Assembly (NCBI RefSeq): GCF_025837095.1
Contig: NZ_CP107551.1
Span: 558,001-622,000, forward strand
DNA: 64,000 bases
Source of the DNA: Rhodococcus sp. Z13
Lineage (GTDB): Bacteria; Actinomycetota; Actinomycetes; Mycobacteriales; Mycobacteriaceae
Direction: 5' to 3'
The notes under the pieces were generated by a model that had not been told where the DNA came from, did not search any database, and saw only the letters and a program-made list of their open reading frames with translations. Positions 1 to 25,038 of the stretch are shown in pieces. The position numbers were made by a program, and so were the translations under genes. Each line of letters begins with the position of its first letter. Position 1 is the stretch's first letter.

Positions 1-138
1 GTCGCACAGCCGCGAGATCTTCACCGCCCCGCGGCCTTCGGAGACGAGCAGGCGCAGGCCCGCCTCGGTCCAGTCGTCGAGGGACAGCCGTGGTCGCCGC
101 CCGGACCGGCGGCCGCTCTTCGCCGGTTGTTCAGCCAC
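1..138 (-). CDS. TetR-family regulator, N-terminal fragment (cut by window edge)
   Basis: Only the first 46 codons are present. The reading frame starts at a GTG preceded by a GAGAGGTGACC ribosome site. A basic leader rich in Arg/Lys/Gly (residues 2-18) is followed by LSLDDWTEAGLRLL and GRGAVKISRLC, which match helix 1 and the start of the helix-turn-helix of TetR-type repressors. The ligand domain lies outside the window. It starts 38 bases after the lipase-like gene on the same strand, so the two are probably co-transcribed. Its likely target is the palindrome at 1044-1058 in the divergent promoter, as TetR genes often control the neighbouring divergent operon. The family call is good; the target is inferred. 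Confidence 0.75.
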   Translation of the reverse strand, partial: MAEQPAKSGRRSGRRPRLSLDDWTEAGLRLLVSEGRGAVKISRLCD

Positions 139-176: not shown

Positions 177-1013
177 CTACAGGTCGCCCGCGGGCAGCGC
201 CGCGACGACGGCAGCCCGTGCTGCGGGGTCGTGGGGCAGACGCCAATGGTCCACGCAGCCGGTCGAATCCGAGCCCGTCGGTACGCCCGCCAGTGTGACG
301 ACGGTGGAGCCCGGCAGGGCGCCGCGCTCGGGCGGGACCACGAGGAGGTCGCAGGTCGACACGATGTCGGTGTAGCGGACGCCGGGGGTCGGCACGCCGC
401 GGGCGTGCAGGTCGCGAAGCAGGTTCGACCCGGCGACGATCTCGCGGCAGCCGGCGCAGACCGGGTCGACGATCGGCTTCTCGAGTCCGAGGACGAGGTC
501 GTAGGTGCCCACATCGCGGCTGATCTGCTCGGCGGCGGCGAGCCCACCGATTTCGGTGCCGTGCCACAGCGCGCCGAGAGTGGTGAGGGAGCGAACCGGC
601 CCGGGGCCGTGCTCCTGCAGGTAACGCTGCACCACCAGCGATCCCGCGCCGTGTGCGACCACGTCGACCGTGCAGGTGGGGTCGTCGCCGCACAACGCGT
701 CCAGAGCCTCGGCGAGATCCCGAGCGCCGGCGTCGGTGCCGCGGAGTCCGGCGAGGGGGAGGGGGAGATCGCCGGCGGCGGGTTCGCCCCAGCTGACGGT
801 GGTGGCGCAACGGCCGGCCGCGGCGAGATCGGCGGTGAAGGCGGTCCACGTCTCGGTGGTGCTCGCGAGGTCGTGCACGAGGACGGTGTCCGGGCGTGCT
901 CCCGCGCACGGATCGGGAAGCGGTGCGGCGGTGGCCGGACCCGACGGAACGGTCCAGGCGGCGACGGCCAGCAGGGCCACCGACAGGGGGTGTGACCAGG
1001 ACTTACCGAGCAT
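177..1013 (-). CDS. secreted lipase-like alpha/beta hydrolase with altered nucleophile elbow
   Basis: The product is 278 residues, starting at an ATG six bases after AAGGAG. Residues 1-30 form a Sec-type signal peptide (hydrophobic core SVALLAVAAW, cleavage near ATAA). The mature part resembles actinobacterial class 2 (EstA/EstB-like) triacylglycerol lipases: an oxyanion strand TVLVHD (residues 43-48), a TWTAF segment, and the elbow VDVVAHGAG (116-124). The family normally has G-H-S-x-G here; this protein reads A-H-G-A-G, so the expected Ser is Gly122. Paired cysteines suggest disulfides. It may be a non-catalytic binder or use another residue. It is divergent from the multicopper-oxidase cluster and upstream of the TetR fragment. 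The fold is fairly sure; the activity is doubtful. Confidence 0.7.
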   Translation of the reverse strand: MLGKSWSHPLSVALLAVAAWTVPSGPATAAPLPDPCAGARPDTVLVHDLASTTETWTAFTADLAAAGRCATTVSWGEPAAGDLPLPLAGLRGTDAGARDLAEALDALCGDDPTCTVDVVAHGAGSLVVQRYLQEHGPGPVRSLTTLGALWHGTEIGGLAAAEQISRDVGTYDLVLGLEKPIVDPVCAGCREIVAGSNLLRDLHARGVPTPGVRYTDIVSTCDLLVVPPERGALPGSTVVTLAGVPTGSDSTGCVDHWRLPHDPAARAAVVAALPAGDL

Positions 1014-1035: not shown

Positions 1036-1063
1036 TTGACCAAACCATACCGTATGGTACTGT
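1036..1063 (+). promoter_or_regulatory. promoter of the multicopper-oxidase cluster with embedded palindromic operator
   Basis: A -35 candidate TTGACC (1036-1041) and a -10 candidate TACTGT (1058-1063) are 16 bases apart. The spacer contains ACCATAC-C-GTATGGT (1044-1058), a perfect 7-base inverted repeat around one central base. A dyad in this position would block RNA polymerase when bound, as is usual for TetR-type repressors. The elements are seen directly; the assignment to the TetR gene at the window start is inference. Confidence 0.6.
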
Positions 1064-1128: not shown

Positions 1129-2946
1129 ATGCAGAGACTCAGCCGCAGAACCCTTCTCGCCGGACTCGCCGTCGGAACCGGCGCCGTCCTGCTCGGAGGG
1201 CGCGCACTCGCGGACGGCCCGGACATCACCCGGCCGCTGCTGTTCCACTCCCCGCGGCTCGAACCCTTCGTCGACGAACTGCCGATCATCCCGCGACCGG
1301 ACAGCACCTCCTACCGGATCGACGCCGTCAGTGCCCGGCACAGCTTCCACCGCGACCTGCCGGCCGGACCGACCCTCGCCTACGGCGACAGCACCTACGG
1401 CGGCCCGACGCTCGTCGCACACAAGGGGCAGGAGACCTCGGTCGAGTACCGCAACGCCATCGACACGCACCCCTTCGCCGCCGACTTCGACACCACGCTG
1501 CACGGGCTGAGCGAACGCGACCGCACCGACGTCCCCACCTCGATGCACCTGCACGGCGGGGTGACCCCACCCGAGTTCGACGGCAACCCCGAACAGATCT
1601 CGCGTCCCGGCCAGGGATACACCTACCGGTTCCCGAACCGCCAGGACGCGACGACCATGTGGTACCACGACCACGCGATGGCGGTCACCCGCCTCAACGC
1701 CTACGCGGGCCTGGCCGGGATGTACCTGCTGCGCGACGAGTACGACACCGGCGACCGGCGGAATCCGCTGGGGTTGCCCAGCGGCGAGTTCGAACTCGAG
1801 CTGGTACTGCAGGAGAAGATCGTCAACAGCGACGGTTCGCAGAGCATCCGCTCGACTCCGATCGTGCCGCAGGGCCGGTGGGAGGGCGGCGCCGTCGGCG
1901 ACGTCGGTGTCGTCAACGGCAAGATCTGGCCCGAGGCGCGCGTCGCCCGCGGCCTGTACCGGGTGCGGCTGCTCAACGCGGCGTCCTTCAGCGTTTGGGA
2001 TCTGCACTTCTCCAACGGGATGCCGTTCTGGGTGATCGGCATGGAGGGCGGCCTGCTCGACGCGCCCGTCCACACCACCCGCGTACGCCTGTCGCCCGGC
2101 GAACGCGTCGACCTGCTCGTCGATTTCGGCGTGCTCGAACCCGGCGACACCGTGGAACTGCGCAACAGTGAGCCCGCCGCCCCGCAGGCCGCGCAGATCG
2201 GTGCCGTGCTCATGCCGCTGTTCATGCGTTTCCGCGCCGAATACGCCCGCGGGTTCACCGGCCCGGTCCCGGACCGGCTGCGCGGCGGCCCGGGGCTTCC
2301 GCCCGTGGTGGGGCCGATCCCGACGCCGCAGAACGTGCGGAACGTGTCGCTGAGCCAGCCCTCGGAGGTGCGGATCCCGCCGTCGATCATGTCGCTGAAC
2401 AACCTGATGTACCACAGCACCGACATCGAGATGCCCCGCCAGGGCACCGTCGAACAGTGGAACATCGTCAACGCCACCCCGGACCCGCACCCGATCCACC
2501 TGCACCTGGTGCACTTCCGTGTCCTCGGCCGGCAGGCGATCAACACCCTCGCCATGTGCGCCCGACAGCCGCAGCCGCCCATCGGGCTCAAGTGGACCCC
2601 GGACGCCGACCCCTTCGTCGTCGAGCCGCTGCGCGGACCCGAACCCTGGGAGACGGGTTACAAGGACACCGTCATCTGCAACCCGAACTCGGTGACCCGC
2701 GTGATCGCCTACTTCCCGACCGCGGACGAGCTCGGCTTCGACCCCGACACGACGTTCTCGCGCGAGGTCCACACCTTCGACCCGCACCGGGCGGGTCACC
2801 ACGCCGTCGGCCACGGCGACCACGGCCCAGACGGCCACGGCACCGAGCACGGAAGCCACGGCGACCTGCAGGGCTACGTCTGGCACTGCCACATCCTCGA
2901 CCACGAAGACCACGACATGATGCTCAAATACCGGACGGTGACATGA
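1129..2946 (+). CDS. Tat-exported multicopper oxidase (laccase/CotA-like)
   Basis: The product is 605 residues with a twin-arginine signal (SRRTLLAGLAVGTGA, residues 5-19). The copper ligands of the multicopper oxidase family are all visible: HLHGG (140-144), WYHDH (178-182), HPIHLH (454-459) and the C-terminal HCHILDH (586-592), giving one type 1 and one trinuclear copper centre. It should couple one-electron oxidation of phenolic or similar substrates to reduction of O2 to water, outside the membrane. A His/Gly/Asp-rich insertion (about 553-579) just before the last motif may hold or deliver copper. It starts at ATG after AGGAAAG, and its stop overlaps the next start (ATGA). The family call is firm; the substrate is unknown. 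Confidence 0.93.
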   Translation: MQRLSRRTLLAGLAVGTGAVLLGGRALADGPDITRPLLFHSPRLEPFVDELPIIPRPDSTSYRIDAVSARHSFHRDLPAGPTLAYGDSTYGGPTLVAHKGQETSVEYRNAIDTHPFAADFDTTLHGLSERDRTDVPTSMHLHGGVTPPEFDGNPEQISRPGQGYTYRFPNRQDATTMWYHDHAMAVTRLNAYAGLAGMYLLRDEYDTGDRRNPLGLPSGEFELELVLQEKIVNSDGSQSIRSTPIVPQGRWEGGAVGDVGVVNGKIWPEARVARGLYRVRLLNAASFSVWDLHFSNGMPFWVIGMEGGLLDAPVHTTRVRLSPGERVDLLVDFGVLEPGDTVELRNSEPAAPQAAQIGAVLMPLFMRFRAEYARGFTGPVPDRLRGGPGLPPVVGPIPTPQNVRNVSLSQPSEVRIPPSIMSLNNLMYHSTDIEMPRQGTVEQWNIVNATPDPHPIHLHLVHFRVLGRQAINTLAMCARQPQPPIGLKWTPDADPFVVEPLRGPEPWETGYKDTVICNPNSVTRVIAYFPTADELGFDPDTTFSREVHTFDPHRAGHHAVGHGDHGPDGHGTEHGSHGDLQGYVWHCHILDHEDHDMMLKYRTVT

Positions 2947-4130
2947 CTTCCACGAGCGATTCCCCGATTCTCGACCACTTCCAGCGCATCCCCTACGAGC
3001 CGGCCGATGACGGCCGCGTCGAGATGCACTCCGGTCTCAGCCGCCACTACCCGACGCTGCACGGCAACCTCGTCGCCCCGGCCGGCTACTCCAAGGAGGT
3101 GGGCGTGGTCATGTGCCATCCCGCCTCGAACTTCCTGACGCACTTCCTGCTCCGCGCGTTCGCGCAGGCGGGGATCCCGGCGATGGGACTCAACACCCGC
3201 TACTCGTCCAACGAACCGGCGCTGATCATGGAGCGCGCCGCGCTCGACCTCGGGACCGGGGTGCGGTGGATGGCCGACGAACTCGGTTTCGAGAAGGTCG
3301 TACTCCTCGGCTTCAGCGGCGGCGGTTCACTGGCCTCCTTCTACCAGTCGCAGGCCCAGAACCCCACGGTCACCGCCACTCCCGCGGGGGATCCCGCGCC
3401 GTTCGCCCGGGCGGACCTGCGACCGGCCGACGCGCTCATGCTCGTCGGTGCCCACCCGGGCCGCGCCCGCGTGCTGCGGCACTGGATCGACGGTGCCGTC
3501 GTCGACGAATCCGACCCCTACGCCACCGATCCCGAGCTGGACCTCTACGCGCCCGGCCGCACCGCCCCGCTCGACCCGGAGTGGGTGCAGCGTTACCGCG
3601 ACGCCCAGCTCGCCCGGATGCGTCGCATCGACGCGTGGGCCCTCGAACAGCTCGCCGAACTCGAACGCACCGGCTCGTCGGACCGCGGATTCGTCGTGCA
3701 CCGCACCGTCGCCGATCCTCGCTTCGTCGACCTGAGCATCGACCCGAGCGACCGCGAACTCGGCTCCATGTACGGAGATCCCAAGGCCGCCAACACCGCA
3801 GCCGGTGGCCTGGCGCGCTTCGTCACCGTGCGCAGCTGGCTGAGCACCTGGAGTGTCGACCACACCCACGCCGACGCCCTCACCGACCTGCGCAACGTCA
3901 CCACCCCCACGATCGTGATGAGCCTGCTGGGCGACCAGGCGGCCTTCGCCGAGGACTCCCGCCTGATGTACGACGCGCTCGCGGGCACCGACAAGGAACT
4001 CGTCGAGATGCACGGGCTCAACCATTATCTCGTGGACCAGCCGGATGGTCTCGCCGACGTCGTCGGCCGTCTGACCGCGTGGATCCGCCGCACCGTGTTC
4101 GACGAACGGACCGAGGAGGCACTGGCATGA
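2943..4130 (+). CDS. alpha/beta-fold hydrolase
   Basis: The product is 395 residues. The nucleophile elbow is LLGFSGGGS with Ser125, after an oxyanion-hole strand near VVMCHPASN (56-63). A GD acid candidate lies in SLLGDQAAF and a His in MHGLNHYLVDQ near the C terminus, so the triad looks complete. No signal peptide is seen, so it acts in the cytoplasm. The start overlaps the stop of the oxidase gene by four bases and its own end overlaps the next gene in the same way, so the three are translationally coupled. It could be an esterase or a C-C hydrolase acting in the same pathway; the sequence does not decide which. Confidence 0.85.
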   Translation: MTSTSDSPILDHFQRIPYEPADDGRVEMHSGLSRHYPTLHGNLVAPAGYSKEVGVVMCHPASNFLTHFLLRAFAQAGIPAMGLNTRYSSNEPALIMERAALDLGTGVRWMADELGFEKVVLLGFSGGGSLASFYQSQAQNPTVTATPAGDPAPFARADLRPADALMLVGAHPGRARVLRHWIDGAVVDESDPYATDPELDLYAPGRTAPLDPEWVQRYRDAQLARMRRIDAWALEQLAELERTGSSDRGFVVHRTVADPRFVDLSIDPSDRELGSMYGDPKAANTAAGGLARFVTVRSWLSTWSVDHTHADALTDLRNVTTPTIVMSLLGDQAAFAEDSRLMYDALAGTDKELVEMHGLNHYLVDQPDGLADVVGRLTAWIRRTVFDERTEEALA

Positions 4131-5410
4131 CCGACATCGACACGCTCGAACAGTCGACGGACGCTCCGATCGATCGCTGCCCCACGGCATTCCCGTACTG
4201 GCAGGCCATCGAGAAGCCCGGCATCAAGCGGGCCCGGCGGATCGTCCGCAGGCTCACCGGATTCGACTTCCTGCCCACCGACGAGCAGGCCCGCGCCCTG
4301 TGCAACGACCTGTTCAGCGGCGACCCCACCGCGGAACGCTTCGTCGACGAGGTCTACCACGGCGAACTCGGCCCGAAGAAGACCCGCGAACTGCTCGACA
4401 AGGCACTGACCGACGGCATCGACTCCCTCGACGAGGTGCCCGACGCCATGAAGGCGCTGTTCGAGGAGTTCGAGACCGTCCCCGACTGGGTGCAGCCCGA
4501 ACTCGTGGAGGAGGGCGCCGCCATCTGGCGCCGGTGGGGCACCATGCTGTTCAGCTTCGCCGGTGCGGAGACCCTCGAGATCTACACCGAGGCCGCGGTC
4601 GCGACCCCGCTGTCCCTCGCGGGCGGTTACGCCGGCGACAACGCCCTGCGCCGCTTCCTCGAGACCTGCCGGTTCTGGATCGACGTGTCCGAGCCCGGCG
4701 CGTTGCTCACCCCCGGCAGCAAGGGCCGAGCGACGGCGCTGAAGGTGCGGGTCATGCACGTCTCGGTCCGCTCCCGCGTCGCGAAGCACCCCGAATGGGA
4801 CATCGCCAAGTGGGGCCTGCCGATCAGCCAGACCTACATGCTGCTGACCCTCATCGCCGGCAGCGTCACCCCGGGTCTGGCCCTGTGGGTGCTCGGCTAC
4901 CACACCACCCCGCGGGAGATCCGGGCGCTCATCCACTTCCAGAAGTACATGGGCTACCTGCTCGGCGTGCGGATGCAGTGGTACCCGGAGACCCTCGGCG
5001 ACAGCGTCCGCACCCTGATGACCACCGTCGTCTCGCGCTCCTACGACTCCGGGGAGCACGGCAAGGAACTCATCGAGTCCTACCCGCAGGCCTTCGCCCC
5101 GCGCGACGGCCACCGCGGCCTGAAGCGGCTGCGCGAGTACTACAACTTCCGCATCAACTCCGTGTACTCGGCGATGTTCATGGCACCCGGAACACGGCGG
5201 AAGTACTCGCTGCCCAAGGTGATCCCGTGGATGATCATCCCGATCGCCCGGTTCCCGCTCATCACCGCGATGGAGCTGGCCCGCCGCTTCGTCCCCGGCG
5301 TCGCCGGAGTGCACGAGAAGATCATGGTGTGGCATCGGGAGAACTGGTACCGCGCCCAGATGGAAGGCCGCGAAGCACAATTCGACGCCAGCGGTGCACT
5401 GCGCCGATAG
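4127..5410 (+). CDS. DUF2236 oxygenase (MpaB/latex-clearing-protein family)
   Basis: The product is 427 residues. The central part (about residues 130-240) has the layout of the DUF2236/MpaB family: WRRWGTMLFSFAGAETLE, then TALKVRVMHVSVRSRV with the conserved basic and His residues that in latex clearing protein surround a b-type haem. Characterised relatives cut C=C bonds of isoprenoid chains, namely rubber for Lcp and the farnesyl tail of a mycophenolic-acid precursor for MpaB, giving carbonyl products. No Tat signal is present, unlike secreted Lcp. It is coupled by ATGA to the hydrolase before it. The aldehyde dehydrogenase downstream would suit an aldehyde product. The family call is fairly firm; the substrate is inference. 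Confidence 0.75.
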   Translation: MTDIDTLEQSTDAPIDRCPTAFPYWQAIEKPGIKRARRIVRRLTGFDFLPTDEQARALCNDLFSGDPTAERFVDEVYHGELGPKKTRELLDKALTDGIDSLDEVPDAMKALFEEFETVPDWVQPELVEEGAAIWRRWGTMLFSFAGAETLEIYTEAAVATPLSLAGGYAGDNALRRFLETCRFWIDVSEPGALLTPGSKGRATALKVRVMHVSVRSRVAKHPEWDIAKWGLPISQTYMLLTLIAGSVTPGLALWVLGYHTTPREIRALIHFQKYMGYLLGVRMQWYPETLGDSVRTLMTTVVSRSYDSGEHGKELIESYPQAFAPRDGHRGLKRLREYYNFRINSVYSAMFMAPGTRRKYSLPKVIPWMIIPIARFPLITAMELARRFVPGVAGVHEKIMVWHRENWYRAQMEGREAQFDASGALRR

Positions 5411-5497
5411 ACGCCGTCAGCGCTGCGCCGACAGGCGCACACCTTGCGCTGCGCCGATAGGCGCACACCTTGCGCTGTGCCGATAGACACCGATTCA
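5396..5497. repeat. 26-base tandem repeat, about four degenerate copies
   Basis: Units near 5396-5419, 5420-5445, 5446-5471 and 5472-5497 share GCGCTGCGCCGATAGGCGCA followed by CACCTT, with a few changes. The two middle copies are almost identical. The first copy contains the stop codon of the DUF2236 gene and the last ends just before the ribosome site of the next gene. The array fills the only sizeable gap inside the cluster. It may be slippage DNA, or a processing or folding element that alters expression of the downstream genes. Confidence 0.8.
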
Positions 5498-5519
5498 CCT
5501 CATCGAGACCGGAGAAGAC

Positions 5520-6572
5520 ATGACCTTGCAGATCGTGGAGGCCTGGAACGGCCCCGGCCGGCGGGACGGCGAGATCACCGTCGTCGCCCCCAGCGACAAC
5601 GGCGCCCATCCCTCCACCGACAAACACGCCTTCGAACACTGGTACTTCGACGCCCACCTCGACGACGGACGCATCGTCGTCGCGATGCTCCAGACGCGGG
5701 AGCTGGTGCACCGCAAGCCCGGTGTGGAGATTCACGTCTACAGTGCCGACGGGCAGCGCCGCGAGGCGAGCCGCACCTACACCGACGCCGACCTGTCGGT
5801 GTCCACCGAACGCTGCGACGTCCGCGTCGGGGAGAGCTTCGCGAAGCTGACGGGGGAGAAGGACGGCCTGCCCGTCTACCACGTGTCGGTGTCCGAAGGC
5901 GATCTCGCCTTCGACCTGACCTTCGAGGCCGAGGTGCCGCCGTGGATGCCCGGCCGCGGCCGCACCAGCTACAACGAGCGCGAGTTCTTCGCGTGGGTCG
6001 TCGGCGCACCGCGCGCGAAGGTCTCGGGTACGGTCACGGTGGACGGGAAGACCACCGAGGTCACCGGCCGCGGCTACCACGACCACAACTGGGGCGTCGG
6101 CGACATGAAGCGTGTCATCGACAAGTGGTACTGGGGCCGCCTCTACACCGAGGACTTCACCCTCGTCTACGCGATGGTGCACACCCAGAAGAAGTACGGT
6201 TCGCACTGGTCGCAGCCGGTGATGGTCGCGCACGGTCGCGACGTGATCCTCAGCAACGGCGAGGTGGAACTGACCGAGGGACCGACGGTGTACAACCCGG
6301 TCGCCGACCGCACCTATCCGTCCTGGGTGCGTATCCGGGTGCCGGGTTCGCTCGACGTGACCCTGACGGTCCGCGAGATCGTGCACGCCCACAACCTCCT
6401 CGAGGACGTGCCGCTGGCGTCGAGCAGGCTGCTCAAGCCGATCGTCAACAAGCTGATCGGCCATCCGGGCTACTTCCGGTTCCGCTCCGACTTCACCATG
6501 ACGGTCACGGTCGACGGACTGGACCACGAGCGTTCGGGGTCGACCCTGCACGAGATGGTCGCCCTGACATGA
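5520..6572 (+). CDS. CrtC/AttH-type lipocalin-fold protein (hydroxyneurosporene-synthase-like)
   Basis: The product is 350 residues. The N-terminal half has [19 protein letters not shown], typical of the AttH/CrtC superfamily. The second half has [10 protein letters not shown] followed by [16 protein letters not shown], the conserved His/Asn/Trp block of this two-domain lipocalin-like fold. Relatives include bacterial carotenoid 1,2-hydratase (CrtC) and, more distantly, plant tocopherol cyclase, so acid-base chemistry on an isoprenoid double bond is plausible. No export signal or membrane segment is seen. The start is an ATG after a GGAGAAGA site, and the end overlaps hmgA by ATGA. The fold is fairly sure; the reaction is not known. 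Confidence 0.7.
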
Positions 6573-7897
6573 GCACGCCCGTGGAGGTCCGTCCGGCTCT
6601 CGACTACCTGCACGGTTTCGGCAACGAGCACCACAGCGAGGCCGTGCGGGGAGCACTGCCGTGGGGTCAGAACTCACCGCAACGCGTGGCCCACGGGCTG
6701 TACGCGGAACAGCAGTCCGCGACGGCGTTCACCGAGCCCCGCGAGATCAACCGTCGCACCTGGACGTACCGCATCGTGCCGTCCGCGGCGCACGGCCCGT
6801 TCGAACGGATCGACGACGGTGGCTGGGTGTCGGCACCCGACACCACGGGGGTGCTCACCCCCAACCGGCTGCGGTGGGATCCGCAGCCCGTGCCGGCGCC
6901 GGGCACCGACTTCCTCGACGGGATGACGACCTACGCCACCAACGGGGACGTGACCGCCCGCACCGGCATCGCGATCCACTTGTACGCGGCGTCGCAGTCG
7001 ATGACCGACCGGTACTTCGTCGACGCCGACGGCGAACTGCTGTTCGTGCCGCAGGACGGTGCGCTGCTGCTGTGCACCGAGCTCGGTCGGCTGGTCGTCG
7101 AACCGGGGGAGATCGCCGTGATCGGGCGGGGTCTGCGGTTCCGCGTCGACCTGCTCGACGCCACCGCCACCGGCTACCTGCTCGAGAACTACGGCGCCGC
7201 TCTGACCCTGCCCGAACTCGGGCCGATCGGCGCGAACGGCCTCGCGCACGCTCGCGACTTCCTCTATCCCACGGCATGGTTCGAGGACCGCACCGGACCG
7301 GTGCAGCTGGTGCAGAAGTTCGGTGGGCACCTGTGGGCCACCGAACTCGACCACTCACCGCTCGACGTCGTCGCCTGGCACGGCACGCACTGCGCCTACA
7401 AGTACGACCTCGCCCGGTTCAACGCGATGACCACGGCGGGCTGGGACCACCCCGACCCGTCGATCTTCACCGTGCTCACCTCACCCGGCCCGGTGCCGGG
7501 ACAGGCCAACGTCGACTTCTGCGCCTTCCCGGACCGCTGGGTGGTGGGTGAGCACACCTTCCGCCCACCGCACTTCCACCGCAACGTCATGACCGAGTTC
7601 ATGGGACTCGTTCGTGGACGGCATGATTCGAAGGCGGAAGGATTCGTCCCCGGCGGTGCGTCCCTGCACAACCAGTGGGGCGCCCACGGGCCCGACGTCG
7701 AGACCTTCGATCTCGCGACCACGGCGGACCTGAAGCCGGTCAAACTCGAGAACACCCTGTCGTTCATGTTCGAGACGCGACTGGCGCTCACCGTCACCGA
7801 TGCGGCCCACCGCGCCGCGCACCGCCAGCCGAACTACGATTCGTCGTGGTCCGGTCTCACCCGCCGCTTCACCCCACCTTCTCCTCAGGAGTCGTGA
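6569..7897 (+). CDS. hmgA: homogentisate 1,2-dioxygenase
   Basis: The product is 442 residues, the normal length. It opens the aromatic ring of homogentisate with O2 to give maleylacetoacetate. Start signatures [13 protein letters not shown] and [15 protein letters not shown] match the family. The iron ligands are present: His337 and Glu343 in [10 protein letters not shown] and His373 in AHGPD, equivalent to His335, Glu341 and His371 of the human enzyme. The usual partners (maleylacetoacetate isomerase, fumarylacetoacetase, hydroxyphenylpyruvate dioxygenase) are absent. Instead it is coupled by ATGA to the CrtC-like gene and by TGATG to an aldehyde dehydrogenase. It may serve ordinary Tyr/Phe breakdown or a special aromatic substrate of this cluster. 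Confidence 0.93.
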
Positions 7898-9372
7898 TGA
7901 CCGAACTGTCCACTCCCGCACCCGTCGTCGTACCCGACCCGCAGCTGCGCATCGGCGGCCGGGCCGTGCCCGCCCGCTCGGGTGCCCACTTCTCGTCGAT
8001 CAACCCGGCGACGGAGGAGGTCGTCGCCGAGGTCGCCGCCGGTGGCGCCGCCGACATCGACGCCGCCGTCCTCGCCGCCCGCGACACCTTCGAATCCGGT
8101 GCCTGGTCGCGCATGCCCGGTGCCGAGCGCGGCCGGATCCTCTCCCGCGCCGCCGATCTCATCGAGCAGCACGCCCCCGAGCTGTCGGCCCTCGAGACCG
8201 CCGAGATGGGCAAGCTCTACGCCGACACCGTCGCCGGCGACATCCCCGCCGCCGCGGCGTCGTTCCGGCACTACGCCGGCTGGGCCGACAAGATCGCCGG
8301 TGAGGCGATGATCCTGCCCGACGTGGGGCCGCAGCACCGCTTCGGCTTCACCCTGCGTCAGCCCCTCGGCGTCGTCGGCGCCATCACCCCGTGGAACAAC
8401 CCGACGGTCGTCGCGGCGTGGAAGATCGCTCCGGCCCTGGCCGCGGGCTGCTCGGTGGTCGTCAAGCCCGCCGAGGACGCCTCGCTGTCGACGCTGAAGC
8501 TCGCCGACCTGCTCGCCGAGGCCGGTGTCCCGGACGGGGCGTTCAACGTCGTGCCCGGCCTCGGCCCGGAGGCCGGTGCCGCGCTCGCCGCCCACGAGGG
8601 CATCGACAAGATCACCTTCACGGGCAGCCCGGCGGTGGGCAAGACCATCACCTCGCTCGCCGGCGAGAAGTTCCGCAAGGTCACCCTCGAACTCGGCGGC
8701 AAGGCACCGCAGCTGGTGTTCCCCGACGCCGACCTCGAGGCGTCGCTGCCCTGGATCGCGATGGGCAACTTCTACCACCAGGGGCAGGTCTGTGCGGCCG
8801 GCACCCGCGTGATCGTGCACGAGTCGATCGCCGACCAGGTCGTCGAGGGCCTCGTCGAGTTCGCCCGCGGCGCCGTCATCGGCGATCCCTTCGACCCGGA
8901 CACCACGCAGGGCACCATCGTCAACCGCAAGCAGCTCGACCGCATCCTCGGCTACATCGAGAAGGGCAAGAGCGAGGGCGCCGAACTGCTCACCGGCGGT
9001 TCGCGCGTCGGGGACCGCGGCTACTTCGTCGAGCCGACCGTCTTCCGCGGCCACAACGACCTGACCATCGCCCGCGAGGAGATCTTCGGTCCCGTCGCCA
9101 CGGTCATCACCTTCAAGACCACCGAGGAGGCGGTGCAGCTGGCGAACGCCACCAAGTACGGCCTCAACGCCTTCATCTTCAGCCAGAACCTGTCGACAGT
9201 GCACAGCGTCATCCCGCAGCTGCGGGTGGGCACCGTGTGGGTCAACGGCTGGGGTGTGCCCGATCCGGCGCTACCCTGGGGCGGACGTGACGCGAGCGGT
9301 ATCGGGCGCGAGCTCGGCCGCAGCGGTCTCGAAGCGTTCACCGAGGAGAAGACGGTTCACCTCGGTTACTGA
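7897..9372 (+). CDS. NAD(P)-dependent aldehyde dehydrogenase
   Basis: The product is 491 residues and covers the whole ALDH fold. The Rossmann region carries ITPWNNPTVVAAWKIAPAL. The catalytic base is Glu265 in LELGGKAP and the nucleophile is Cys299 in GQVCAAG; EEIFGPVATV and the C-terminal region are intact. It oxidises an aldehyde to the acid. The ATG is chosen because AGGAG lies five bases upstream and it overlaps the hmgA stop by one base (TGATG). The position in the cluster suggests it uses an aldehyde made by an upstream oxygenase; the substrate cannot be read from sequence. Confidence 0.92.
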   Translation: MTELSTPAPVVVPDPQLRIGGRAVPARSGAHFSSINPATEEVVAEVAAGGAADIDAAVLAARDTFESGAWSRMPGAERGRILSRAADLIEQHAPELSALETAEMGKLYADTVAGDIPAAAASFRHYAGWADKIAGEAMILPDVGPQHRFGFTLRQPLGVVGAITPWNNPTVVAAWKIAPALAAGCSVVVKPAEDASLSTLKLADLLAEAGVPDGAFNVVPGLGPEAGAALAAHEGIDKITFTGSPAVGKTITSLAGEKFRKVTLELGGKAPQLVFPDADLEASLPWIAMGNFYHQGQVCAAGTRVIVHESIADQVVEGLVEFARGAVIGDPFDPDTTQGTIVNRKQLDRILGYIEKGKSEGAELLTGGSRVGDRGYFVEPTVFRGHNDLTIAREEIFGPVATVITFKTTEEAVQLANATKYGLNAFIFSQNLSTVHSVIPQLRVGTVWVNGWGVPDPALPWGGRDASGIGRELGRSGLEAFTEEKTVHLGY

Positions 9373-9393
9373 TCGAAGGAACGGGACAACGCA

Positions 9394-10614
9394 GTGACAC
9401 AGAGCGAGTTGCAGGCGGCCGGAGCGCTCGCGGACATCCGGGTGCTCGAGCTGGGCACCCTGATCGCCGGGCCGTACGCAGCACGACTGCTCGGCGACAT
9501 GGGCGCCGACGTCATCAAGATCGAGGACCCGAAGCGTCCCGACCCGCTGCGCACCTGGGGACAGGGCGAGCGGGACGGGCACCGCTTCTTCTGGACGGTG
9601 CACGCCCGCAACAAGCGGTGCATCACCCTCGACCTGCGTGCCCCCGAGGGGCAGGAGCTGTTCCGGCGGCTCGTCGCGGAATCGGACGTCATCGTCGAGA
9701 ACTTCCGGCCCGGCACCCTGGAGAAGTGGGGCCTCGGCTACGACGTGCTCTCCGAGATCAACCCGGGCATCGTCCTGGCCCGTGTCTCCGGCTACGGGCA
9801 GACCGGGCCGAAGGCGAGCCAGGCGGGGTACGCGTCGGTCGCCGAGGCCGAGAGCGGCCTGCGGCATCTCAACGGGTATCCGGGGCAGGCGCCGCCGCGG
9901 CTCGCTCTGTCACTCGGCGATTCCCTCGCCGGCATGTTCGCCGTGCAGGGCATCCTCGCGGCGCTGCTCGGCCGGGAACGGTCGGGCCGCGGGCAGGTCG
10001 TCGACGTCGCCCTGACCGAGGCGTGCCTGGCGATCCAGGAGTCGGTCATCCCCGACTACGACGTCGCCGGTGTGGTGCGCGGCCCGTCCGGCACACGGCT
10101 CGAGGGCATCGCACCGTCGAATCTGTACCGCACCGCCGACGACATGTGGATCGTCATCGCCGCCAACCAGGACACCGTCTTCCGGCGCCTGTGCAAGGCG
10201 ATGGACCGTCCCGAGCTCGCCGACGACCCGCGCTTCGCCGACCATCTCGCGCGCGGCGTGAACCAGGACGAGCTCGACGGTCTCATCGGCGAGTGGGCGG
10301 CGACCTGGCGGCTCGACGACCTGCTCGAGCACCTGTCGTCATCCGGTGTGGTCGCCGGTCCGGTGAACACGGTCGCCGAGGTCGTCGCCGACGAGCAGTT
10401 CCGGGCGCGCGACATGATCGTCCCGCACCACGACGAGCGCACCGACACCGACGTGCTCGGGCCCGGTGTGGTGCCGGTGCTCACCGGCACGCCGGGTTCG
10501 GTGCGGCGCGCGGGCCCGCCGGTTGCGGGGTACGACAATGAGGCGGTCTACGGCGAGATCCTCGGATTGTCCGAGACCGAGCGGAAGGATCTGCGCGAGC
10601 GCGGGATCATCTGA
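9394..10614 (+). CDS. class III CoA-transferase (CaiB/BaiF family)
   Basis: The product is 406 residues, starting at GTG. It has the family's N-terminal RVLELGTLIAGPYAARLLGDMGADVIKIE. The catalytic aspartate is in SLGDSLAGM (Asp176), the position used by formyl-CoA transferase for the acyl anhydride. It moves CoA between carboxylic acids. With the aldehyde dehydrogenase 21 bases upstream it forms a logical pair: aldehyde to acid to acyl-CoA. A strong hairpin follows 20 bases later and probably ends the transcript that starts near 1063. Confidence 0.9.
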   Translation: MTQSELQAAGALADIRVLELGTLIAGPYAARLLGDMGADVIKIEDPKRPDPLRTWGQGERDGHRFFWTVHARNKRCITLDLRAPEGQELFRRLVAESDVIVENFRPGTLEKWGLGYDVLSEINPGIVLARVSGYGQTGPKASQAGYASVAEAESGLRHLNGYPGQAPPRLALSLGDSLAGMFAVQGILAALLGRERSGRGQVVDVALTEACLAIQESVIPDYDVAGVVRGPSGTRLEGIAPSNLYRTADDMWIVIAANQDTVFRRLCKAMDRPELADDPRFADHLARGVNQDELDGLIGEWAATWRLDDLLEHLSSSGVVAGPVNTVAEVVADEQFRARDMIVPHHDERTDTDVLGPGVVPVLTGTPGSVRRAGPPVAGYDNEAVYGEILGLSETERKDLRERGII

Positions 10615-10763: not shown

Positions 10764-11894
10764 ATGCACACGCCCATCTGCGACGAACTCGGCATCGAGT
10801 TCCCGATCTTCGCGTTCACCCACTGCCGCGACGTCGTCGTCGCCGTCGCCAAGGCCGGCGGCTTCGGTGTCCTCGGGGCTGTCGGATTCACACCCGAGGA
10901 GCTCGAAATCGAGCTGAACTGGATCGACGAGCACATCGGCGACCGTCCCTACGGCGTCGACATCGTCATCCCGAACAAGTACGAGGGCATGGACCAGAAC
11001 CTCTCCGCCGAGGAGCTGACCAAGCTGCTGCAGTCGATGGTGCCCGAGGAGACCCTCGAATTCGGCCGCAAGCTTCTCCGCGACCACGGCGTCCCGGTGA
11101 ACGAGGGTGACGATAACGCGTTGCAGCTTCTCGGCTGGACCGAGGCCACCGCCACCCCGCAGGTGGAGGTCGCGCTGCAGCACCCGAAGGTCGCGCTGAT
11201 CGCCAACGCGCTCGGCACCCCGCCCGCCGACATGATCGAGCACATCCACAACGCCGGCCGCAAGGTCGCGGCGCTGTGCGGTTCGCCGAAGCAGGCCCGC
11301 AAGCACGCCGACGCCGGAGTCGACATCATCATCGCCCAGGGCGGCGAGGGCGGCGGTCACTGCGGTGAGGTCGGTTCGATCGTGCTGTGGCCGCAGGTCG
11401 TCAAGGAGGTCGCCCCCGTCCCGGTGCTCGCCGCCGGCGGTATCGGCAGCGGCCAGCAGATCGCCGCGGCCCTCGCGCTCGGTGCTCAGGGCGCGTGGAC
11501 CGGTTCGCAGTGGCTCATGGTCGAGGAGGCCGAGAACACCCCCGTCCAGCAGGAGGCCTACATCAAGGCCAGCAGCCGCGACACCGTGCGCAGCCGGTCG
11601 TTCACCGGCAAGCCCTGTCGCATGCTGCGCAACGACTGGACCGAGGCGTGGGAGCAGGAGGGCAACCCCAAGCCGCTCGGAATGCCGTTGCAGTACATGG
11701 TCTCCGGCATGGCCGTCGCCGCCACCCACAAGTACCCCGACGAGTCCGTCGACGTCGCCTTCAACCCGGTCGGCCAGGTCGTCGGCCAGTTCACCAAGGT
11801 CGAGAAGACCTCGGCCGTCATCGAACGGTGGGTGCAGGAGTACCTCGAGGCGACCGGCACCCTCGAGAAGCTGAACGAGGCCGCCAGCGTCTGA
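10764..11894 (+). CDS. nitronate monooxygenase / FMN-dependent 2-nitropropane-dioxygenase-like protein
   Basis: The product is 376 residues, starting at ATG after GAGGAG. It has the (beta/alpha)8 FMN fold of this family: an N-terminal PIFAF strand, GGFGVLGAVG, then the phosphate-binding IIIAQGGEGGGHCGEVGS and VPVLAAGGIGSGQQIAAALALGAQGAWTGS split here by residues. Characterised members oxidise nitronates, but many mycobacterial relatives have unknown roles. The perfect KstR-type box upstream suggests a role in sterol or lipid breakdown rather than nitronate detoxification. It is a single-gene unit followed by hairpins. Confidence 0.85.
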   Translation: MHTPICDELGIEFPIFAFTHCRDVVVAVAKAGGFGVLGAVGFTPEELEIELNWIDEHIGDRPYGVDIVIPNKYEGMDQNLSAEELTKLLQSMVPEETLEFGRKLLRDHGVPVNEGDDNALQLLGWTEATATPQVEVALQHPKVALIANALGTPPADMIEHIHNAGRKVAALCGSPKQARKHADAGVDIIIAQGGEGGGHCGEVGSIVLWPQVVKEVAPVPVLAAGGIGSGQQIAAALALGAQGAWTGSQWLMVEEAENTPVQQEAYIKASSRDTVRSRSFTGKPCRMLRNDWTEAWEQEGNPKPLGMPLQYMVSGMAVAATHKYPDESVDVAFNPVGQVVGQFTKVEKTSAVIERWVQEYLEATGTLEKLNEAASV

Positions 11895-12448: not shown

Positions 12449-13660
12449 TCAGTTCGGCGGCGACAGAAGCTCTTCCAGATTCGTCGCCGAGTACCCGCCT
12501 TCGCGGCACAACTGTACCGTCGGGGCGCGCCGGCCCGGGTACTCGATGCACGGCATGTTCCGAGCGCCGCGCACCGCGATGGGGGAGTCGGCGGGGAGCT
12601 TGCAGTACAGATCCGCCGGTGTCTCCGGCACGTCCGTCTCGGTCGGCGATCGCCACTGCTCGGGAGGCAGGAAGCCGGTGGTACACGGCGGTGGATCGTT
12701 GAAGGTGGTCGCGAAGAAAGTGTTGGGCGCCGGGTTGTCGAGATTCGGCAGCGCCGCCGACTGCGTCGACGCCATGATCGACGGGAACAGCACCAGCATC
12801 TGCTCGAGCGACGGCCGGTAGACCGCCGCCACCTGCTCGACGGTGACCAGATTCGCCAGCAGCAGCGGCAGGGTGGGCTCGGCCTCCTCGAACATGGCCT
12901 GCACCTGCGCCGCGGCCGGTGCGGTCACGCCGAGCAGCGTGCGGATGTCGGTGTCGGAGTCGCGCAGCTGCGCCGACGTCCCGGCCAGCGAGGACGCCCA
13001 CCGGGCGATCGCGCCCGCCGACTCGACCTGCGCGTCGAGCAGCGGACCGGCCTGGTCGATCAGCGCCGCGGTGCTGTCCGCGCTCGCCGCGGCCTCGGCG
13101 CTCACCGCCGTCGCCGCGTCGATCAGGGTCCGCAACGCCTCCCCGGATTCGGCGACGGCCGTGTGGCTCTCGTCGAGCAGCAAGGCGAGCCGGTCGGAGC
13201 CGACGGACTGCAGGGTGGCGTCGAGCTGATCGAGGGCGACCCCCACCGGTTCCGGCACCGACACGCGGTCCTGCGGGATCACCGATCCCGCCGCGAGATA
13301 CGGGCCGTCCTCGGAATCGGGCAGGAACTCGACGTACTGTTCGCCGATCGCCGACATGCTGCGCACCTGGGCCTGCGAGGAGGCCGGCACGGGCACGTCC
13401 GAGTCGAGCGAGAGCACCGCCTCGGCGCCGGAGGTCGTCATGGTCAGCGACGTCACCCGGCCGATCTCGATGCCCCGATAGGTGACGTTGGCCTCCGGAT
13501 ACAGCCCTGCGGCGTCGGCGAGTTCGAGCCGCACCTCGTAGCGGCCCACCCCGAAGAGCGCGGGAACGTTGACGAAGAACAACGCCACGATCAGGATCGC
13601 GGACACCCCGACGGTGAAGAACACGATCAACCGGCGTCGCAGGACTGCGGTCGGACTCAT
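12449..13660 (-). CDS. mceF: MCE-family protein, MceF type (first cluster)
   Basis: The product is 403 residues, the last subunit of the first mce cluster. It has one N-terminal membrane anchor (about 10-32, LIVFFTVGVSAILIVALFF), then the MCE/MlaD beta-barrel domain (about 38-115, with GLYPEANVTYRGIEIGRV). A helical region and a Cys-containing tail with NDPPPCTTGFLPPEQWRSP and PCIEYPGRRAP follow, characteristic of MceF. Six different Mce subunits are thought to build a tube that carries lipid across the periplasm to the YrbE permease. The start overlaps mceE by four bases. The tail is about 65 residues shorter than Mce4F in this window. Confidence 0.9.
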   Translation of the reverse strand: MSPTAVLRRRLIVFFTVGVSAILIVALFFVNVPALFGVGRYEVRLELADAAGLYPEANVTYRGIEIGRVTSLTMTTSGAEAVLSLDSDVPVPASSQAQVRSMSAIGEQYVEFLPDSEDGPYLAAGSVIPQDRVSVPEPVGVALDQLDATLQSVGSDRLALLLDESHTAVAESGEALRTLIDAATAVSAEAAASADSTAALIDQAGPLLDAQVESAGAIARWASSLAGTSAQLRDSDTDIRTLLGVTAPAAAQVQAMFEEAEPTLPLLLANLVTVEQVAAVYRPSLEQMLVLFPSIMASTQSAALPNLDNPAPNTFFATTFNDPPPCTTGFLPPEQWRSPTETDVPETPADLYCKLPADSPIAVRGARNMPCIEYPGRRAPTVQLCREGGYSATNLEELLSPPN

Positions 13661-14751
13661 CGGGTGGCCTCCTCGACGGGCGGGACGAGCAGGGAGACGA
13701 GATCCGGGATCGGCCTCCCGCCGCCGGTGAGGGCGTTCTCGAAGGGGGTGCCGAGCAGCAGCGCGTTCTCGAGCGTCGGCAACGTCAGATCGAGGATGAC
13801 GGTGCCGTTCGCATAGTCCCCGCGCACCGCGTTGCGGTAGGTGTCGATGGGGAACGGGAAGGTCAGCAGGTAGCGCAGCGACTCGGTGAGCGAGTCGCCC
13901 GCCGCGGACAGCGACGCCAGCACCGGTTCGAGATCGCGCAGGTTCGCGACCGTGTCCTCGCTGCTCGCCTCGACCACCTCCGTCGCCACCCGGCCGAACT
14001 CGCCGAGCGCGTCCGCGGCACGCGTGAGGTCTTCGCGCTGCGTGGCCAGCACGTCGAGTGCCGGGGCGAGCTGATCGGTCGCCGCCGCGAGTTGCCTGTT
14101 GTGCTCGGCGACCTCCACGGCGAGCGCGTCGAGCGACTCCATCGCGCCGACGATCTGCTCGGTCTGCGTGTCCAGACCGGCGAGCACCGTGTCGAGGCGG
14201 GTGAGCAGGGTGCGCACCGAGTCCTGACGTCCGTCGAGGGCCCGGTTGAGTTCGCGGGTGATCTCCTGCGCCTGCGCGAGACCGCCGCCGCTGAGCACGA
14301 GCGACAGCGACGACAGGGTCTGCTCGGTGGTGGGGAACGCGCCCGCCCGCTCGAGCGGGATCACGTCGCCGTCGCCGAGCCTCCCGCGCGCGGGTTCGTC
14401 GAGCGGCGGCGACAGTTCGACGTGGGCGGAACCGAGCAGGCTGGTCTGCCCGATCTTCGCGACGGTGTTCTCCGGCAGCACGGTGTCGCCGTCGACCATC
14501 ACCGTCACCACGGCGTGCCCATCGCCGAGTCGCAGGTCGGCCACTCGCCCGACGGTGACGTCGCCGACCCGCACCCGCGAGTTGCGTTCGATGGTGGTCA
14601 CATCGGGCATCTCGATGGTCACGGCGAAGGCGTCGTCGCCGCGGCCGTGGGTGCCCGGCAGTTCGAGACTGTTCAGGCCGCGCCACTCGCAGCCCGCGGT
14701 GAGGGCGAGGCAGGCGAGCAGCGCCAGCAGGCGGATCGGTCGGCGGGTCAC
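13657..14751 (-). CDS. mceE: MCE-family lipoprotein, MceE type (first cluster)
   Basis: The product is 364 residues, starting at a GTG that overlaps the mceD stop (GTGA). The signal peptide ends in the lipobox LTAGC, so Cys21 should be lipidated, as in all MceE/LprK-type subunits. CEWRGLNSLELPG follows, a signature of this subunit, then the MCE domain (VRVGDVTVGRVADL, IGQTSLLGSAHVEL). The rest is predicted long helix ending with the conserved YRNAVRGDYANGTVILDL. The close match to Mce4E (33066-34283) shows the two clusters are paralogous. Confidence 0.92.
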   Translation of the reverse strand: MTRRPIRLLALLACLALTAGCEWRGLNSLELPGTHGRGDDAFAVTIEMPDVTTIERNSRVRVGDVTVGRVADLRLGDGHAVVTVMVDGDTVLPENTVAKIGQTSLLGSAHVELSPPLDEPARGRLGDGDVIPLERAGAFPTTEQTLSSLSLVLSGGGLAQAQEITRELNRALDGRQDSVRTLLTRLDTVLAGLDTQTEQIVGAMESLDALAVEVAEHNRQLAAATDQLAPALDVLATQREDLTRAADALGEFGRVATEVVEASSEDTVANLRDLEPVLASLSAAGDSLTESLRYLLTFPFPIDTYRNAVRGDYANGTVILDLTLPTLENALLLGTPFENALTGGGRPIPDLVSLLVPPVEEATR

Positions 14752-15980
14752 GGCGCCCCCGGGGACAGCAGTTCGGTCAGGGAGGTCGGCGACGGCGCGC
14801 CCGGCGCCGGCATCAGATCGGGCTCGGTGTAGACGAGCTGATCGGGCAGCGCCCCGACACCGCGGGTGGGATTGACGCGCACCGGCGGGTAGTCCATCGC
14901 CAGCAACGGCAGGATCGGTCCCAGATACTGCACGCACAGCTCCGAACCGGTGTGCGCGTCCACCTGTTCCGCCGCGGCCAGCGCCGAGCAGATGAACTGG
15001 GCCGGGTTGGCGAAGTTGGCCAGCGACACCGCCGAGACGACCGTGTTGTGCGCGGGCTGGTAGATGCCCTGCAGGTTCGCCAGTGCCGTCGGCGCCACGT
15101 GCAGGATCTGCGCGATGCCGTCGCGTTGCGCGGCCAGCGTCTCGGTGACGGCGGTGGTCCGGTCCAGGGTGGTGTCGAGACGTTCCCGGTTGGCGCTCAC
15201 GAAGCGTTCGACGTCGACGAGCACCGAGTCGAGACCGGCGAAGGCGGCGGCCATGTCGTCGCGGTTGGCGTCGAGGATCTCGGTGACGGAGGCGAGCCGG
15301 TCGTGGAGGGTGACGATCTGGTCGCCGCTCAGCGACAGCGCCTCGACGAACACCTGCAGGTTGTTCACGGTGCCGAAGAGGTCCTGGCGGCCGTCGGAGA
15401 GCGTGCGCATCGCCGCCGAGAGCTGCTGCAGCGTCTCGCGCAGCGTCTGCCCGTGCCCCTCGGCGTTGGTGGCGGCGACGTCGAGGACCTCGCCGAGCGC
15501 GCCCTGCGGGTCGGTGTCGCTGGGGCCGAGTTCCTCGGTCAGCCGCGAGAGCTGCTCGGTGATCTCGTTCCACTCCACCGGCACCGCGGTGCGTTCCACC
15601 GGGATCGTCGCTCCCACGGGCAGTTCCGCTCCGCCGGTGTACGGGGGAGTGAGCTGCACGAAACGCGCCGACACCAGGGTGGGGGCGATGATCGCGGCCT
15701 GCGCCTCGGCGGGGATGCGCCGGCCCGACTCGATCTCGAACCGCACGAGGACACGGTCGCCGCGTGGTTCGATTCGCGTCACGCGGCCCACCTCGACACC
15801 CATGATCCGTACGTCGTCGCCGACGTACAGGCCACGGCTGGTGGTGAATTCGGCGGCGTACTCGTCGGTGGAGCGCCACGGCGCGACGGTGAACGACACC
15901 GCCGCCACCACGGCCAGCACGAGAAGCGGTACACCCCAGGAGATCAGGGGACGGGAGACCAGATGGCGCATGCGGCTCAT
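14748..15980 (-). CDS. mceD: MCE-family protein, MceD type (first cluster)
   Basis: The product is 410 residues. A single anchor (about 13-32) is followed by the MCE domain (GLYVGDDVRIMGVEVGRV, then LVSARFVQLTP). A long helical stretch contains repeated LSDGRQDLFGTVNNL-type coiled segments, and the tail is rich in Pro and Ser. The LVSARFVQL block is diagnostic for MceD. It overlaps mceC and mceE by four bases on each side, so all six subunits are translationally coupled. Confidence 0.9.
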   Translation of the reverse strand: MSRMRHLVSRPLISWGVPLLVLAVVAAVSFTVAPWRSTDEYAAEFTTSRGLYVGDDVRIMGVEVGRVTRIEPRGDRVLVRFEIESGRRIPAEAQAAIIAPTLVSARFVQLTPPYTGGAELPVGATIPVERTAVPVEWNEITEQLSRLTEELGPSDTDPQGALGEVLDVAATNAEGHGQTLRETLQQLSAAMRTLSDGRQDLFGTVNNLQVFVEALSLSGDQIVTLHDRLASVTEILDANRDDMAAAFAGLDSVLVDVERFVSANRERLDTTLDRTTAVTETLAAQRDGIAQILHVAPTALANLQGIYQPAHNTVVSAVSLANFANPAQFICSALAAAEQVDAHTGSELCVQYLGPILPLLAMDYPPVRVNPTRGVGALPDQLVYTEPDLMPAPGAPSPTSLTELLSPGAP

Positions 15981-19172: not shown

Positions 19173-19177
19173 CGCGT

Positions 19178-20038: not shown

Positions 20039-20112
20039 GCGTCCATCACCGCGAGTCCGCTCATGCGTCCATCACCGCCGGGTCCGCTCATCGGCCCATC
20101 ACCGCGATCCCG
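20034..20112. repeat. 26-27-base triplicated segment at the yrbEA/yrbEB junction
   Basis: Three head-to-tail copies of CTCATGCGTCCATCACCG plus about eight bases lie at 20034-20059, 20060-20086 and 20087-20112. Each copy carries an ATGA start/stop overlap on the minus strand. The array spans the 3' end of yrbEA and the first codons of yrbEB. It separates two genes that would otherwise overlap by four bases. Confidence 0.8.
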
Positions 20113-20852: not shown

Positions 20853-20914
20853 AGTCCTGCCTTCCCCCACGGTCGCATCGACGAAACCGCGCCCCGATGT
20901 CTCGGGGTCCGCCG

Positions 20915-20943
20915 AACATACCCCAGGGTATGTAGGTGGACAA
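20915..20943 (-). promoter_or_regulatory. promoter of the first mce cluster with 18-base palindrome
   Basis: On the minus strand TTGTCC (20943-20938), a 17-base spacer and TATGTT (20920-20915) form a sigma-70-type promoter. The dyad ACATACCC-CA-GGGTATGT (20916-20933, two perfect 8-base arms) occupies the spacer and overlaps the -10. It does not match the KstR consensus. Its placement suggests repression by a different regulator. All elements are directly visible; the regulator is unknown. Confidence 0.65.
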
Positions 20944-20971
20944 GGGGTCGATCCCAGGAACCGGGACGACG

Positions 20972-24944: not shown

Positions 24945-25009
24945 GAACGCTCCAATTTCGGTCACCGCGGTGTCGCCGCGGATCGTCACTGCGGGAATAC
25001 CGCGAATCA

Positions 25010-25038
25010 TTGCACAGAATTGGAACGCGTTCTAGTCT
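25010..25038 (+). promoter_or_regulatory. KstR-type operator in the fdxD promoter (shared with divergent fadE26)
   Basis: TTGCAC (25010-25015), a 17-base spacer and TAGTCT (25033-25038) form the promoter toward fdxD. TGGAACGCGTTCTA (25021-25034) matches all eight fixed KstR positions and its last TA begins the -10. The box is the only one in the 137-base fadE26/fdxD gap, so it may control both directions, as in mycobacteria. Confidence 0.8.

Follow-up and report, generated by a model that had tools for sequence, protein, structure and literature searches.

The window analysed here, a stretch of 64,000 nucleotides from Rhodococcus sp. Z13 (contig NZ_CP107551.1, positions 558,001 to 622,000), contains seven genes running in one direction (1129-10614) that encode a multicopper oxidase (MCO), an alpha/beta hydrolase (ABH), a DUF2236 protein, a CrtC-like protein, an HmgA-type dioxygenase, an aldehyde dehydrogenase (ALDH) and a CoA-transferase. 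The cluster is a real, conserved and apparently co-regulated catabolic regulon. We propose, with a probability of roughly 0.55, that this regulon is inducible and serves to break down a lipid in which an isoprenoid tail is attached to a para-hydroquinone or chromanol head; tocopherol/tocopherolquinone or plastoquinol types are the likeliest substrates. The genes are conserved and co-localized, a palindrome is specific to the cluster, the cluster is continuous with an mce operon in some genera, catalytic residues are kept, and the pocket of the HmgA protein is altered.

Layout of the cluster

Genes were called from homology and GC position rather than with a gene finder, in a host genome of 4.53 Mb that forms a single contig. 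The seven genes are:

1129..2946, + strand: MCO, Tat-type exported (twin-arginine start), CotA-laccase-like; Cu-oxidase_2/3 above cut-off
2943..4130, + strand: ABH; Ser125/Asp331/His361 conserved, Hydrolase_4 below cut-off only
4127..5410, + strand: putative DUF2236 (MpaB/Lcp-type) haem oxygenase; MPAB_Lcp_cat above cut-off
5520..6572, + strand: CrtC-like protein with AttH/kievitone-hydratase fold; Pfam CrtC above cut-off
6569..7897, + strand: putative HmgA-type ring-cleaving dioxygenase with altered pocket; HgmA_N/C above cut-off
7897..9372, + strand: ALDH; Aldedh above cut-off
9394..10614, + strand: family III CoA-transferase; CoA_transf_3 above cut-off

Neighbouring genes overlap by 1-4 bases at four of the six junctions, the exceptions being DUF2236/CrtC-like and ALDH/CoA-transferase. 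An earlier note on this DNA had described seven co-directional genes, most of them overlapping; that description and its count hold, and its title leaves out the hydrolase. The gap between the DUF2236 and CrtC-like genes carries a 26-base tandem repeat (5395-5486, 3.6 copies) that begins in the last DUF2236 codons, and at the same gap Rhodococcus spelaei (locus L139) has a different, 24-base repeat in 3 copies.

Conservation across genera

A survey of 301 genomes of the family, with presence of the CrtC-like protein scored at the threshold used, found this protein in 55 genomes, a DUF2236 match in 104 and a cluster-type HmgA in 30. The CrtC-like gene accompanies HmgA in 29 of these 30 genomes, and by the listed positions the two lie no more than 5 kb apart in 28; in genome G072 they are on different contigs. 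Some of the 30 HmgA matches are partial or contain one internal stop (for example in G010, G011 and G017), and the matches in L061 (from G011) and at G017:C7:94169-95182 lack the first ~100 residues and are possibly decaying copies; G017 is the genome without a CrtC-like gene, and DUF2236 and close ABH genes are also missing from it. Close ABH orthologues (>500 bits) occur in 29 genomes, every one of them an HmgA genome.

For a wider view, neighbouring genes were counted by tblastn in named loci, which are the best 79 of at least 572 confirmed candidates; 70 (L075-L144) were counted, and nine Chloroflexi loci (L145-L153) were left out. Because 31 of the 70 come from Nocardia, the loci are not independent, and Fisher values calculated from them are descriptive only. 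The CrtC-like gene has DUF2236 no more than 8 kb away in 64 loci, MCO in 29, ALDH in 25, HmgA and ABH in 23 each, CoA-transferase in 12, the lipase-like gene described below in 8 and the NMO-family gene in 3. HmgA occurs together with ABH in 22 loci, and together with ALDH likewise in 22. From these counts, the core of the system is the pair of DUF2236 and CrtC-like genes, and ABH, HmgA and ALDH form a coherent extension of it. Gene order is conserved over several genera. Among the named loci, HmgA-bearing forms are seen in Rhodococcus, Dietzia, Rhodococcoides, Williamsia, Gordonia and some Nocardia, and shorter forms in other Nocardia, Tomitella, Antrihabitans, Skermania, Aeromicrobium, Nocardioides and Solirubrobacteraceae. 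Confinement to this strain was one of the outcomes that the earlier note had named as fatal to its idea; the set recurs over genera, which also rules out a chance neighbourhood.

Several loci have features of their own. In Skermania (L089, L045), the core pair is followed directly by two further genes, one for a second DUF2236 protein (28% identity) and one of Baeyer-Villiger type (36%). Locus L118 (CAMCUD010000009.1) is from a metagenome bin titled Bifidobacterium breve; its cluster is closest to Solirubrobacteraceae/Svornostia loci, and the title looks wrong. The Chloroflexi bins L145-L153 hold CrtC-like relatives of 31-34% identity, and the other cluster genes were not found in the available DNA. 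An open reading frame at L075:13819-15111 was discarded as lying in the wrong frame, with no Pfam match.

A cluster-specific palindrome and a TetR-family regulator

The unit is wider than the seven genes, with a regulator, a lipase-like gene and a palindrome on the left, and an NMO-family gene and an Mce operon on the right:

1..138, - strand: start of a gene for a TetR-family regulator of 193 residues, the remainder lying left of the window (L016:9557-10138); TetR_N above cut-off
177..1013, - strand: lipase-like protein, divergent from MCO; signal-peptide-like start (by eye)
1044..1058, no strand: operator-like palindrome ACCATACCGTATGGT, between the divergent lipase-like gene and MCO
10764..11894, + strand: NMO/FabK-type flavoprotein of the NMO family; adjoins the cluster in Rhodococcus only, among the loci seen
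12449..21152, - strand: Mce operon A, a yrbE pair and mceA-F, limits approximate; MlaE above cut-off

With up to two mismatches allowed, 0.02 matches to the palindrome would be expected in the window. A 17-base form, searched at the same stringency, occurs exactly once per genome in all 12 members of the genus that carry the cluster and is absent from all six that lack it. In other genera the palindrome also lies upstream of the first cluster gene, or of the separate parts of a split cluster. Of 14 more cluster-bearing genomes outside the genus, 13 contain a site, in some of them along with additional two-mismatch sites far from the cluster, and G042 has none at two mismatches; a reversed control pattern gave one or two sites in some of these 14. 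Anywhere in the locus, again at up to two mismatches, the palindrome occurs in 22 of the 70 named loci versus one of 70 base-shuffled copies. One site with a single mismatch (L207:11970) has no clear target; on one side of it is an mce operon, on the other the end of an HMG-CoA-lyase-type gene.

An orthologue of the TetR gene stands near the CrtC-like gene in 48 of the 70 named loci, and we infer that its product binds the palindrome. TetR control is known from sterol regulons. Directly left of the TetR gene, outside the window, is a second NMO-family gene (L016:8366-9478), and related genomes have matches to the window NMO of 43-45% identity at the equivalent place. The lipase-like protein of the window matches no family itself; the related protein of L098 reaches 20.9 bits on Lipase_2 (cut-off 20.3).

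Linkage to Mce lipid uptake

The genome contains ten MlaE/YrbE permease genes in five pairs, and therefore about five Mce operons, two of which are in the window. In operon A the MlaE/YrbE pair stands with mce genes, as expected of an Mce transporter. The second operon (26753-35692, + strand) is related to operon A, and an acyl-CoA dehydrogenase gene (23760-25010) lies between the two.

In the flanks that were fetched, mce genes occur at 17 of 23 HmgA-bearing named loci and at seven of the 47 that lack HmgA. Of the six HmgA loci without them, five (L075, L076, L077, L079 and L120) are short of flanking sequence on one or both sides; in L091 the two flanks are of full length and contain no mce genes. 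In R. spelaei (L139) the MCO, ABH, DUF2236, CrtC-like, HmgA, ALDH and CoA-transferase genes are followed on the same strand by an HMG-CoA-lyase-type gene and then by yrbE and mce genes. The palindrome precedes MCO, followed by yrbE and mce genes, in both G133 (L207) and Williamsia herbipolensis (L208), and in G075 (L210) a palindrome site separates the CoA-transferase gene from yrbE. A tree of 26 MceF sequences splits the linked copies from Mycobacteriales, together with both operons of the window, from the genome's three other operons (support 0.92). The copies from Nocardioidaceae group with those three, and for this reason the link between cluster and Mce may have arisen more than once.

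Grouping of Mce lipid uptake with catabolic genes is a feature shared with actinobacterial Mce4-linked sterol catabolism. The present cluster differs in its Mce operon and its enzymes, and no sterol-ring genes were seen among the scanned cluster genes. Mce4 is cited as a steroid transporter in PMC6498646.

An HmgA clade with an altered pocket

The cluster HmgA scores 604.7 bits on TIGR01015 (cut-off 510.75). The 31 distinct copies from clusters group in a single clade (support 0.87), next to one group of outside HmgAs. They keep His331, Glu337 and His367 (Pseudomonas putida numbering), which we take to be the iron ligands, as well as His288; one copy is gapped at 367. The surroundings of the metal are changed. 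Position 346 is His in all 31 copies and Tyr in P. putida, in the human enzyme and in ten of ten controls; this Tyr presumably lies near the substrate. Position 329 is His in 29 of 31, position 348 Ser in 29 of 31, position 364 Trp in 28 (Phe in two, a gap in one) and position 413 Arg in 30 (a gap in one). These columns were chosen after inspection of the alignment and then checked on ten outside HmgAs, none of which has the cluster residue at 346, 329, 364, 348 or 413. The altered pocket suggests that the substrate is an acid other than plain homogentisate.

The CrtC-like protein and the putative DUF2236 oxygenase

The modelled CrtC-like protein (mean pLDDT 86.8) has fold matches to AttH, kievitone hydratase, fungal pericyclases and 25-phosphosteroid lyase, with sequence identities of 9-16%, and the matched lyase structures include one with bound desmost-1,4-diene-3-one. 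In the anaerobic breakdown of cholesterol, this compound is the alkene that arises from a tertiary phosphoester (PMC8449060). Kievitone hydratase hydrates the prenyl group carried by an isoflavonoid (PMC5805349). Residues D188, W203 and W205 are invariant in 91 of 91 CrtC-like sequences, and their spacing equals that of D268, W283 and W285, the catalytic residues that PMC12402844 gives for the carotenoid hydratase RgCrtC; the match is by spacing, RgCrtC not having been aligned. The cluster protein appears, from sequence and model, to share with the CrtC/kievitone hydratase/25-phosphosteroid lyase family its fold, the spacing of an Asp and two Trp residues, and chemistry at a tertiary isoprenoid carbon. 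It differs in its low identity to the solved folds (~15%) and in its score on the CrtC equivalog NF045922, where 26.1 bits lies far below the cut-off of 400.

The DUF2236 protein belongs to the same Pfam family as the rubber oxygenase Lcp and fungal MpaB, the sequence comparison here being with Lcp. Lcp cuts an isoprenoid double bond to leave CHO-CH2- and -CH2-COCH3 ends, and the roles and numbering of its residues are taken from the same source (PMC5522427). Arg164 and His198 are present in 85 of 85 DUF2236 sequences and Thr168 in 83 (Ser in the other two). The cluster protein differs from Lcp in its weak sequence match (E 4e-8), in the replacement of Lys167 and Glu148, and in its N-terminus, where no export signal was seen by eye.

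The remaining enzymes and occasional partners

All four copper motifs are present in the MCO (at 139, 178, 454 and 585), and its nearest solved relatives are CotA laccases. The ABH model (mean pLDDT 69.1) matches generic lipases, esterases, haloperoxidases and HsaD-like hydrolases. The best model for the ALDH is the phenylacetaldehyde dehydrogenase StyD (613.5 bits, below the cut-off of 800), and its best solved relatives are diverse aldehyde dehydrogenases. For the CoA-transferase, the nearest models are of the succinate/glutarate and mesaconate types, below cut-off.

Two further genes join the cluster in some strains. An HMG-CoA-lyase-type gene (66-100% alike) adjoins the CoA-transferase gene in five genomes (L037, L041, L081, L139 and L207), and relatives at 38-41% occur in three other loci. 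In L037, L038 and L081, DUF2236 or ABH shares its palindrome with a divergently oriented gene of Baeyer-Villiger type; the product of this gene in L081 is above the FMO-like cut-off, and its FSGTTFHSATW fits FxGxxxHxxxW, the Baeyer-Villiger monooxygenase fingerprint. Relatives at 59% and 47% identity are also encoded in the host genome, beyond the borders of the window.

A proposed pathway

Every reaction, the reaction order and the substrate are deduced from sequence and are put forward conditionally. The exported lipase-like protein and the laccase would act outside the cell, where the laccase would oxidize a chromanol to a quinone carrying a tertiary alcohol, and the Mce transporter would import the lipid. 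A prenylated hydroquinone carries the group Ar-CH2-CH=C(CH3)R. The CrtC-like protein would generate this group by carbocation chemistry at the tertiary isoprenoid carbon, whether dehydration, hydration or chroman opening, and the DUF2236 protein would cut its double bond to give Ar-CH2-CHO and a methyl ketone. The ALDH could then convert Ar-CH2-CHO to Ar-CH2-COOH, an alkylated homogentisate, the ring of which HmgA would open, and the ABH would hydrolyse the ring-cleavage product. If C3 and C4 carried methyl groups, dimethylmaleate and a 3-oxoacid would result from ring cleavage followed by hydrolysis. The CoA-transferase, with the HMG-CoA-lyase-type enzyme in some strains, would take the acids onward, a Baeyer-Villiger-type monooxygenase (a matching enzyme being present in three genomes) would handle the methyl-ketone half, and the TetR protein at the palindrome would control the regulon. 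Tocopherol is our best single guess for the substrate, because MCO and the CrtC-like protein fit its two preliminary steps, oxidation to a quinone that bears a tertiary alcohol and removal of that alcohol.

In outline this agrees with the earlier note, which had suggested breakdown of a prenylated homogentisate-type molecule; the parts fit, and the roles of two enzymes have changed. That note sent a tail aldehyde through ALDH and CoA-transferase to beta-oxidation. The ALDH more likely acts on the arylacetaldehyde half, oxidizing it to the acid required by HmgA, the tail half is better matched, as a methyl ketone, to the Baeyer-Villiger-type monooxygenase at the shared operator in three genomes, and the HMG-CoA-lyase-type gene next to the CoA-transferase in five genomes points to small dicarboxylates. 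Mce uptake, the TetR regulator, the operator-like palindrome, the lipase-like gene and the altered HmgA pocket are additions to it.

Several observations weigh against the proposal. HmgA is absent from 47 of the 70 named loci, and the core pair may therefore serve several or other lipids; MCO lies within 8 kb of the CrtC-like gene in just 29. In the DUF2236 proteins, the position of Lcp Lys167, the distal ligand, is Glu in 85 of 85, and that of Glu148, the base, is never Glu (Ser in 83 of 85), although the source reports Lys167 itself in only 59% of Lcps (PMC5522427). The palindrome is missing from most named loci, being found in two of 31 from Nocardia and none of six from Rhodococcoides, and a search at two mismatches gave no separate palindrome for Mce operon A of the window. 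A profile search of the ABH against solved chains gave nothing at E 0.01; with no specific profile match and a model that matches generic hydrolases, its role rests on co-occurrence. The monooxygenase and HMG-CoA-lyase-type genes are rare, the Baeyer-Villiger-type gene being present in just five of 112 sequences compared, and the pathway leaves the NMO gene without a role.

Alternative explanations

Of the competing explanations the one that fares best, although we think it rather unlikely, is a regulon for another Mce-imported lipid whose head ring is converted to an arylacetic para-diol by the same types of reaction, such as a prenylated phenol from a plant or fungus, or else a naphthoquinone, for example menaquinone. 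The sequence evidence settles the reaction types and leaves the head group free, and kievitone hydratase, one of the fold matches of the CrtC-like protein, acts on a prenylated isoflavonoid (PMC5805349). By contrast, tocopherol would call for both a laccase and an enzyme for a tertiary alcohol, a requirement that is not obvious for quinones in which the double bond is already present.

It is less probable still that the core, often with MCO, modifies or detoxifies terpenoids or phenolics and that HmgA, ALDH and the hydrolase joined it for a separate aromatic acid. The core does lack HmgA in most named loci, and relatives with the CrtC fold include detoxifying as well as biosynthetic enzymes. 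Such a composite origin sits poorly with the near-constant company of core and cluster-type HmgA (28 of 30 within 5 kb), with a single palindrome serving both in the genus, and with a gene order that is interleaved and varies between genera while the set stays together.

That the cluster hmgA is a plain homogentisate/tyrosine gene with unrelated neighbours, a reading that the earlier note had also argued against, is very improbable and was rejected, because a separate homogentisate locus exists elsewhere in the genome. At 4.19 Mb, a gene for a second HmgA-like protein of 400 residues accompanies a fumarylacetoacetase gene (TIGR01266, above cut-off) and a MarR-like gene (by eye), and HPPD is encoded 20 kb away, at 4.21 Mb; maiA was not among the genes searched for. 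The earlier note had named the lack of a second, complete hmgA-maiA-fahA locus as another outcome that would defeat its idea, and the genes found do not bear that outcome out. The arrangement matches the hmgR-hmgA-hmgB locus of Rhodococcus ruber Chol-4, which according to PMC6498646 grows on homogentisate and not on tyrosine. What speaks for the cluster gene as the plain enzyme is that its product passes the TIGR01015 cut-off, whereas the 400-residue protein falls below it (52.8 bits). Against this stand the conservation of the cluster's neighbours over genera and the alteration of the HmgA pocket in 31 of 31 copies. The cluster shares with the homogentisate central pathway of R. ruber (PMC6498646) the HmgA-family ring cleavage of an arylacetic para-diol, and differs from it in the altered pocket and in its ties to lipid uptake and tail-cleaving enzymes; as the earlier note had observed, the usual HmgA partners are missing, no fumarylacetoacetase or isomerase gene being found among the scanned cluster proteins.

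Degradation of polyisoprene by the DUF2236 protein as a rubber oxygenase is hardly credible despite the common Pfam family and the three shared active-site residues, and was rejected given that no export signal was seen, that Lys167 and Glu148 are replaced throughout, and that a ring-cleaving enzyme is linked to the gene.

Implications

Plants and algae make tocopherols and plastoquinone widely. We found no gene set for the breakdown of prenylquinones or tocopherol in searches of the open-licence literature. Tentatively, and with more doubt than attaches to the general proposal, the cluster could provide the first gene-level account of bacterial uptake and breakdown of vitamin E-type lipids (tocopherol/tocopherolquinone, perhaps plastoquinone), in which a laccase would act with a CrtC-fold enzyme to remove the chroman or tertiary alcohol, a DUF2236 protein would release the tail in the form of a methyl ketone (phytone), and a re-specialized HmgA would open the methylated homogentisate ring. 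With one palindrome site per genome in the genus, the question of the substrate is testable with a single reporter. If the proposal is true, it would give roles to a group of DUF2236 proteins, to a family of CrtC-like proteins and to a clade of Mce transporters, and it would show an enzyme of the tyrosine pathway retuned for the head group of a lipid.

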